This document shows positions 7,697 to 16,861 of a DNA stretch of 39,771 nt, in pieces. The position numbers and the translations under genes are program-made. Below the pieces are notes generated by a model. That model was not told the origin of the DNA. It saw only the letters and a list, made by a program, of their open reading frames with translations, and did no database searches. Source of the DNA: Candidatus Kaiserbacteria bacterium (lineage in GTDB: Bacteria > Patescibacteriota > Minisyncoccia > Phycocordibacterales > UBA2100); contig JACRFH010000054.1 of the NCBI GenBank assembly GCA_016217975.1, positions 1 through 39,771 of the forward strand, given 5' to 3'. Position 1 is the first letter of the stretch, and each line of letters starts with the position of its first letter.

Positions 7697-7772
7697 TTCT
7701 TTGATATTTTAGTTTTGGAAACCCAAATATCGGTGTCCTTATTATTATGCTATAGCATCAAAATAAGAATAT

Positions 7773-15581: not shown

Positions 15582-16016
15582 TCATGTGAAAAAGCTTTCT
15601 CGATGTTTGTCGATATCGCTCACGATGCGTTTTATCACTTTTTCTACCCCATCTTTTGTCGTGTATTCCGGATTCGAGGAGGAAACGAGCGGCGGAGTCA
15701 TGGCATATTCACTCGCGGTCATCGGCTCCGCTACTGGAACCTTATTTTTTCCGGGCTCATAATCCAAGAAGGCATCTTTATTTGGGAATCTATAGATTGA
15801 AAACGGAAATCCGTCCGGATGTCCCTTCTCGCCAAAAACTATCCTGATATACGGGCCCTTGTCCTTCAGCATTATTTTGAGCATCTGATTGTCAGGCGAA
15901 GCGGAAATATCTGCCTCATCTGGGAGTTTCTCTTTCAATTCCTTTTCACAATCGGCAAGAAATGCCTTCTCCGCATCGCCCGGTTTTTCAAAGTCTCCAA
16001 GTTCCATTCCGCTCAT
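15582..16016 (-). CDS. Hypothetical protein (144 aa)
   Basis: The family was not recognised. It is a soluble, acidic protein with no signal peptide. The first third is helical and charged (EKAFLADCEKELKEKL), followed by alternating strands (KIMLKDKGPYIRIVFGE, GFPFSIYRFPNKDAFLDYE), and it ends in a helix VEKVIKRIVSDIDKHRESFF. ATG 16016 is preferred to an ATG three codons upstream because the upstream ATG overlaps the -10 box TACTAT; the chosen one lies 7 bases after it. It is upstream of rnhB by 33 bases on the same strand. Confidence 0.72.
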   Translation of the reverse strand: MSGMELGDFEKPGDAEKAFLADCEKELKEKLPDEADISASPDNQMLKIMLKDKGPYIRIVFGEKGHPDGFPFSIYRFPNKDAFLDYEPGKNKVPVAEPMTASEYAMTPPLVSSSNPEYTTKDGVEKVIKRIVSDIDKHRESFFT

Positions 16017-16023
16017 ATGCTCC

Positions 16024-16051
16024 ATAGTACCTCGCGTTTTTAAAACGACAA
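16024..16051 (-). promoter_or_regulatory. Promoter for the 144-aa gene
   Basis: TTGTCG (16046-16051), a 16-base spacer and TACTAT (16024-16029) lie 7 bases before ATG 16016. Confidence 0.55.
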
Positions 16052-16084: not shown

Positions 16085-16124
16085 CACTTGTTTATCTTCA
16101 GCGGCCGCGGATTGTAAACAAGTG
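16085..16124. repeat. 40-bp palindromic element upstream of the PaaX/Cas2-like gene
   Basis: Arms CACTTGTTTA (16085-16094) and TAAACAAGTG (16115-16124) are perfect inverted copies. The central GCGGCCGC palindrome (16101-16108) has exactly the same centre. The right arm touches the putative -10 box TACAAT (16126-16131), so it could be an operator. A close inverted copy lies at 16786-16821 after the gene. Confidence 0.85.
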
Positions 16125-16139
16125 ATACAATCTCATTCG

Positions 16140-16762
16140 ATGGTGAGTGAAAAAGACAAATCGGAAAATAGACCGCTTGAGACAAGAGTCCGCAAACGTG
16201 CTAGGCGAGATTCAATCAAGAATGCCCTTCTCGGCGTCCTTGGAACGGCTGGAATGCTCACAGTCGCAGAGTTGCAGCGCCAAAAGTCCTTTCCCTTCTC
16301 AGACGCGAACACCTCGACATGTTTCTCCCCGCGGATCCGAAGCAACGACTTTATGAGACAGCGTCGCGCCTAAAGCGGAAAGGATTTATCGAATTTCGTA
16401 TCGAAAACGGGCGCAAACGGATGTATCTCACTGAAGAGGGATCAAGAGAAATCCGACGTGTCCAAAATCAAAGTATGCCCTTGCCGCGACCGCGAAGGTG
16501 GGATCGCAGGTGGCGCATAATTATTTTTGATATTCCCGAGAAAAAGAAAAATGTGCGCGACCGAGTGCGGGCCCTTGTACAAAGACTCGGATTCTTTCGA
16601 TTGCAGCATAGCGTGTGGGTATATCCATATGACTGCGAGGAAATAATCACACTTCTTAAGTCTGACTTGAAACTTGGGAGCCAATTACTCTATATGATCG
16701 TAGATGCAATTGAATATGACAAGCCTATCCGCGAGCATTTCGATCTTCCACTTGATCGTTGA
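16140..16762 (+). pseudogene. PaaX/Cas2-like winged-helix regulator, split by a frameshift
   Basis: The C-terminal part (from about 16319) has the PaaX/Cas2-like ferredoxin-fold signature common in CPR genomes: KRWD-like RRWDRRWRIIIFDIPEKK, then LQHSVWVYPYDCEE and a LLYMIVDAIE strand. Before it is a winged-helix part (QRLYETASRLKRKGFIEFR, then RMYLTEEG). The N-terminal helix (RDSIKNALLGVLGTAGMLTV) is in a different frame. The frames join sensibly near 16266-16283, where the second frame reads VAAPKVLSLLRREHLDMF, so a single-base deletion would explain the break. No slippery heptamer is obvious. It may be a real pseudogene, a sequencing error, or a shorter gene starting at ATG 16319. Palindromes flank it on both sides, which suits autoregulation. 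Confidence 0.7.
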
Positions 16763-16785
16763 ATACAGATTGACGGGCACGGGTA

Positions 16786-16821
16786 CTTGTTTATTTCCCG
16801 CGGCCGCGAAAGATAAGCAAG
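16786..16821. repeat. 36-bp palindromic element between the PaaX/Cas2-like gene and dnaE
   Basis: CTTGTTTATTT (16786-16796) pairs with AGATAAGCAAG (16811-16821) with two G-T pairs, around the central palindrome CGCGGCCGCG (16799-16808). Its reverse complement matches the element at 16085-16124 closely (CTTGyTTATCTT, GCGGCCGCGG, TAAACAAGT). The two therefore flank the gene in opposite orientation. Confidence 0.85.
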
Positions 16822-16861
16822 AGAGTTAGAAGACGGATACAGAAGCTAGTATACTGCCTTG

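Follow-up and report, generated by a model that had tools for sequence, protein, structure and literature searches.

Two described systems come closest to the locus analysed here. In REPtrons, the gene of a TnpA-REP/RAYT protein is flanked by REP palindromes, and further REPs are dispersed (PMC8266576). In E. coli, PaaX has a 39-bp palindromic site, TGATTC(N27)GAATCA, and represses its own promoter (PMC9493321). The present locus is best explained as a frameshifted, decayed copy of a gene family that occurs throughout the tiny, uncultured Patescibacteria and whose members are bracketed by their own palindromes. We did not find this arrangement described in the literature, nor did we find an open-access paper that names PaaX together with Patescibacteria.

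The window, i.e. the whole stretch of 39,771 nucleotides that was analysed, is contig C40 of a 943,729-bp genome (G000; 65 contigs, 90.6% complete). Between rnhB and dnaE it contains a PaaX_M gene with a single frameshift at ~16268-16271, which bears out the frameshifted PaaX/Cas2-like gene recognized in a sequence-only reading of this DNA. The Pfam profile PaaX_M (PF20803) matches the C-terminal part of the product with 70.5 bits (cut-off 24), and the Cas2 profile (PF09827/TIGR01573) yields a weak match, 22.0 bits for a cut-off of 23.8. An intact 206-residue relative from genome G015 aligns by tblastn on either side of the frameshift, and the frame changes there and nowhere else. The N-terminal part of the gene, with the start of the winged helix, is in frame on the plus strand from 16122 to 16268. 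The remainder of the winged helix and the Cas2-like (PaaX_M) domain follow on the same strand at 16271-16762 (listed ORF 16319-16762). The change of frame at 16268-16271 either breaks the gene or is an assembly error of this MAG; unless the latter is the case, this copy is probably inactive. An ORF of 147 residues, to which no function is assigned, lies on the minus strand between rnhB and the element (15582-16025), and we noted no counterpart in the rnhB-dnaE gap of relatives that have the two genes close together.

The elements of 40 and 36 bp that had been noted on either side of the gene are indeed present. The 5' palindrome, CACTTGTTTATCTTCAGCGGCCGCGGATTGTAAACAAGTG (16085-16124; arms ACTTGTTTA and TAAACAAGT, core GCGGCCGC), overlaps the probable promoter and the start region of the gene, as had been proposed, and its position relative to the start codon is the same as in homologues. 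The 3' palindrome (16785-16824, of which the symmetric 36 bp, CTTGTTTATTTCCCGCGGCCGCGAAAGATAAGCAAG, occupy 16786-16821) is located between the gene and dnaE, whose ORF begins at 16859. Within the window, the pattern CTTGTTTA-N-TAARCAAG has no match besides these two elements, and shuffled sequences give an expectation of 0.00 occurrences. Both elements had been called perfect or near-perfect palindromes. Their arms and cores are symmetric, but perfect they are not, with 16 of 20 positions paired in the 40-bp palindrome and 14 of 18 in the 36-bp one; the 5-bp spacers are unpaired, which is typical of the whole family. The opposite orientation ascribed to the two elements is meaningless for palindromes, as the second matches the first at 78% of positions directly and at 81% as a reverse complement. 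A functional link to dnaE had also been envisaged. Most relatives have rnhB next to dnaE, and among the relatives read the element is found between the two genes only in G000 and G023; the gene of the same family in G015 adjoins other genes. This link was rejected because the element is missing in nearly all relatives with a readable region upstream of dnaE.

The genome-wide search for the motif that the same reading had proposed was performed in G000 with up to three mismatches allowed and the reversed pattern as a control. The motif occurs exactly seven times, i.e. twice around the gene and five times as solo intergenic copies (contigs C2, C37, C51, C56 and C63), and the reversed pattern has no match across the genome. 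Three further PaaX_M genes of G000, on contigs C23, C54 and C59, are all bracketed on both sides by palindromes of 30-42 bp, with arms specific to each gene and similar cores (GCTATAGC, GCGGCCGC and ACGGCCGT). With a covariance model built from the palindromes, solos of several families were detected in G000. The window itself harbours a solo palindrome of the C23 paralogue's family, GTGTCCTTATTATTATGCTATAGCATCAAAATAAGAATAT (7733-7772), located 1 bp downstream of a trmD-like gene; the 5' palindrome of the paralogue has the same asymmetric spacer (34 of 40 nucleotides identical). Three solos belong to a family, CATACACTAACT..CCTATAGG, whose cognate gene is absent from the assembly (C21:6649, C37:2615 and C13:286; L137, L138 and L140). 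Palindromes are also found at or near contig ends (G019:C108:3393-3432, G000:C63:136-175 and G000:C13:286-325), so assemblies may break there and copy numbers may be underestimated.

A genome scan gave 518 relatives, of which we used the best 80 for the analysis of homologous loci. These relatives are labelled as Kaiser-, Zambryski-, Nomura-, Taylor- or Adlerbacteria (Patescibacteria) or are MAGs without a name. Palindromes are present on both sides of the gene at 66% of the 80 loci, whereas the figure is 3.9% for 204 control ORFs taken from these loci; such palindromes are thus found next to PaaX/Cas2-like genes in relatives, where the sequence-only reading had suggested looking for the motif. 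Arm identity is 84% when the two palindromes of a gene are compared with each other and 42% when palindromes of different genes are compared. Palindromes are equally frequent on the 3' and 5' sides, and the 5' palindrome abuts or overlaps the start codon in 32 of 60 cases. In a sample of the phylum, 64 of 192 genomes have PaaX_M genes, up to 11 per genome, and 50% of 30 loci have palindromes on both sides. The case in the window is one instance of this phylum-wide pattern. Most PaaX_M ORFs longer than 240 residues are devoid of palindromes, which indicates that bracketing is a property of the short two-domain PaaX_M subfamily. A search of 2.9 million viral contigs for a viral origin found a single partial relative (L252, IMGVR_UViG_3300031949_000100), devoid of clear long palindromes, and the idea of a phage-borne element was rejected.

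The two-domain architecture was also found at the structural level. The AlphaFold model of an orthologue (pLDDT 78, pTM 0.55) shows a winged helix and a Cas2-like fold. Its best match among solved structures according to Foldseek is E. coli PaaX (8a39), followed by PadR/TubR winged helices and Cas2, and VIA-align matches are mainly PadR/MarR winged helices; the Cas2-like half is thus assigned on the basis of Foldseek and profiles. As in E. coli PaaX, a winged helix is combined with a Cas2-like domain, and the two arms of the site span ~39 bp, binding in the present case being predicted from the sequence. In contrast with E. coli PaaX, the C-terminal PaaX domain is absent (about 190 versus about 316 residues), palindromes occur on both sides and as stray copies, a genome may encode many paralogues with a site of its own for each, and a conserved CTATAG or CGxxCG core is coupled to residue 124. 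The scores obtained with the PaaX equivalog profile TIGR02277, 23.6-36.5 bits, are far under the cut-off of 264.55 (~185-206 residues for a profile of 279 positions), which marks the protein as PaaX-like rather than as PaaX. With Cas2 it shares a C-terminal ferredoxin-like domain and the Cas2 signature with an invariant Asp (FDIPE, residue 118). It differs from Cas2 by its fusion to a winged helix, its own bracketing sites and its borderline or sub-threshold scores with Cas2 profiles (26.5 for orthologue L058 and 17.3 for L008, with a cut-off of 24.5). The profile matches comprise PaaX_M, winged-helix and Cas2 domains only, with no transposase domain, including HUH Y1, among them.

The sequences of the palindromes suggest how they are read. 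In 70 aligned palindromes, 91% of the cells are paired compared with 50% after shuffling, absolute figures that are inflated because palindromes entering the pairing and coupling counts were chosen partly by their symmetry and recognizable core, a selection that leaves the contrast between same-gene and different-gene palindromes uninflated. Full Watson-Crick changes keep the symmetry, and G-U pairs are as rare as the other mismatch types. Such compensatory changes, together with G-U pairs being no commoner than other mismatches, argue for double-stranded DNA sites and against RNA hairpins or terminators at gene ends. A perfect 40-bp palindrome could fold as RNA, and the solos of G000 tend to come after stop codons, as terminators would. 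However, the types of pairs led us to reject this highly improbable reading, against which also stand the absence of a T run, the overlap of 5' copies with the start codon and the covariation of core class and arms with DNA-contact residues.

Arm similarity correlates more strongly with similarity in winged-helix residues 41-75 (r 0.47) than with that in the Cas2-like part (r 0.29), both values being above all 500 permutations. The strongest couplings with arm bases, corrected only in part for phylogeny like all our residue couplings, involve residues 53, 56, 57 and 60, which lie on a single side of the predicted recognition helix (H54-67). In all 46 genes whose two palindromes can both be assigned clearly to a core class, the classes upstream and downstream agree. 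Core class is coupled to residue 124 in a helix of the Cas2-like domain, a Lys being associated with CTATAG and an Arg with CGxxCG. We also compared 26 disjoint nearest pairs that differ in their cores; 13 of them have the K(CTATAG)/R(CGxxCG) combination and none the reverse. Given the matched arms, the shared core class and the covarying residues, each protein very probably reads its own palindromes as double-stranded sites with the same geometry as the operator of E. coli PaaX. The earlier suggestion that the palindromes are sites of the winged-helix protein thus gains strong support from the bracketing of paralogues and homologues, the matched arms and the apparent coevolution of arms and helix.

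Cognate sites could simply be the operators of an ordinary autorepressor with a small regulon, the bracketing pair closing a repression loop and the solos regulating other genes. The PaaX-type operator geometry, the strong purifying selection on the protein (dN about 0.04-0.08 and dS 0.5-1.5 in syntenic pairs) and the frequent location of the 5' palindrome at or over the start codon agree with this, and the latter makes autorepression of the gene itself likely. In contrast, a regulon does not account for 3' palindromes as frequent as the 5' ones, nor for the positions of the solos. Those of G015 lie in 8 convergent, 14 tandem and 4 divergent gaps, near the gap baseline of 42, 87 and 35, i.e. 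with no promoter enrichment. Same-family solos of G000 and G015 have no neighbour gene in common, seven of the nine solos of G000 follow a stop codon at a distance of no more than 26 bp, and solos appear and vanish among close relatives. These positions speak against operators of a conserved regulon, and we consider the autorepressor reading as a whole rather unlikely, if the most serious competitor.

The distribution of solo palindromes within the genus follows that of the gene. Eight of the nine genomes without the gene have no palindrome match and the ninth has one weak match, and gene-bearing genomes have up to 63 strand matches, or about 33 sites, in G015 (Mann-Whitney p = 0.001). At a strict cut-off, palindromes are absent from some gene-bearing genomes, e.g. 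G003, G005, G008 and G027; either these are members without palindromes or the covariance model misses them. Each family has 2-11 copies. Many distant copies with no link to promoters had been anticipated as the mark of a generic repeat. Distant solos are present, yet each is specific to a family and genus members lacking the gene have virtually none, which argues against a generic repeat. In G015, the solos of the four main families have unrelated flanks, except for six ACTTGTTTA-family copies (L165, L168, L169, L171, L172 and L173) that sit in the middle of a ~115-bp dispersed repeat (ATACCATCTCCAAAATATATTGTCCGG ... AGGAACGGGTTTGTTGGGAATGGTAT). The latter would fit passive repeats of the MITE type that are unrelated to the protein. 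This reading is scarcely credible, since each gene has arms of its own on either side, palindromes co-occur with the gene, and protein and site are coupled. No ~115-bp copy devoid of the palindrome was found in the G015 DNA examined. Eight further solos of G015 belong to the GATATGCTATC family, for which no cognate gene was found.

Direct evidence for turnover comes from two sites in three related genomes. In G019, a solo (C21:773-812) between what we take to be sodA-like and comEC-like genes, judging from their translations, belongs to the family of this genome's only PaaX_M gene. At the aligned position of G243 (C24), a palindrome of another family is found instead. It is identical over 35 nucleotides, including the asymmetric spacer and the core, to the 3' palindrome of the G243 element L066, which is located elsewhere and has unrelated flanks. 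G244 has no palindrome at the aligned position. The second site is a G243 solo between presumed rpsP-like and helicase-like genes, which is absent in both G019 and G244. Thus, solo palindromes have been gained and replaced between close relatives at these two sites, and the exact 35-nucleotide match suggests that they are apparently copied from the resident element.

These data also bear on whether the whole unit moves, the palindromes having been proposed as possible ends of a small mobile unit. In a conventional minimal transposon, they would be terminal repeats and the protein a transposase. In line with this, the copy number of the gene is patchy, from 0 to 10 within one genus, and gene pairs with 60-69% protein identity are syntenic in just 20% of cases. 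Non-syntenic copies resemble each other up to the outer palindrome edge, with a similarity of 0.63-0.79 in the arms and of 0.22-0.37 on their outer side. However, intergenic DNA beyond the palindromes diverges in syntenic pairs too, so this edge is weak evidence for the ends of a unit. Two remnants of the G015 element C5:27555 are found at different places of that genome (C3:15580 and C6:3187; L231, L235), one with the 5' palindrome and the start of the gene, the other with the 3' palindrome and the end of the gene. In contrast, no target-site duplication was seen by eye at 33 G015 sites, and the profiles revealed no known transposase domain. No precise empty site or excision was found; at the dnaE locus and in the intergenic region that holds one of the G243 solos, the non-coding DNA has diverged too far to define exact ends. 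Families within a genome consist of solo palindromes, not of whole-unit copies, and synteny is kept in about 91% of the gene pairs whose proteins are at least 80% identical. The transposon reading is quite improbable on this evidence. Of the mobile-unit proposal, the patchy copies in non-homologous places, the edge at the palindromes and the dispersed, turning-over solos stand, and the target duplication, excision and transposase signature were not found. The identity-synteny pattern and the low dN relative to dS indicate that the unit rarely moves and is kept by selection. RAYT genes likewise rarely move and are kept by selection (PMC8266576).

We therefore favour, with moderate confidence, a self-bracketing, REPtron-like unit in which a PaaX-type protein would bind its own palindromes and solo copies would be propagated. 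The unit comprises one gene for a ~190-residue protein, with a winged helix and a Cas2-like dimerization domain, between two ~40-bp palindromes. A dimer would sit on each palindrome as double-stranded DNA, with the recognition helices reading the arms and the Cas2-like domains reading the core. At the 5' site over the promoter or start codon, the protein would repress its own gene. Solo copies would spread as in REPtrons, replacing older ones after being copied from a palindrome of the resident element. The protein may drive this copying, e.g. by nicking the core, or merely bind, making the sites persist. Observations against this explanation include the long stay of older copies at one locus, as the synteny of pairs with at least 80% identity shows, and the 2-11 copies per family, far under those of classical REPs, besides the lack of a target-site duplication or a precise empty site and the gene-bearing genomes devoid of palindromes at the strict cut-off.

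As in a REPtron, a single, vertically kept gene has bracketing palindromes that are also dispersed in intergenic DNA, and each protein has its own palindrome class. The differences lie in the PaaX/Cas2-like protein, with no match to an HUH Y1 transposase domain, and in the ~40-bp palindromes, which are apparently read as double strands and have an arm-spacer-core structure. Unlike in REP repeats, no base is conserved at the palindrome edge, so a constant GTAG tag is absent, and copies do not number in the hundreds. The unit thus works like a REPtron yet is none, given its lack of an HUH protein and of the GTAG tag and its low copy number. It seems to represent a type of genetic unit, not described before, that spreads repeats or maintains itself.

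If the pairing of proteins and sites is right, hundreds of natural pairs would represent a specificity code for the winged-helix/Cas2-like scaffold. The family would then also show that the REP/RAYT arrangement, a single gene keeping and spreading its own palindromes, has been reached twice by unrelated means. A more specific idea, which we put forward only tentatively and hold to be doubtful, is that the Cas2-fold protein, aimed by its winged helix, nicks or breaks its own CTATAG or CGxxCG core, and that repair from the bracketing copies spreads the palindrome and overwrites those of other families. Such a repeat system would be selfish and self-bracketing, would need no HUH transposase and might illustrate how a Cas2-like protein acts outside CRISPR. 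As residue 124 appears to read the core, the family bears on the function of the Cas2 fold outside CRISPR. Patescibacteria have reduced genomes, yet many of them harbour 1-11 of these units.
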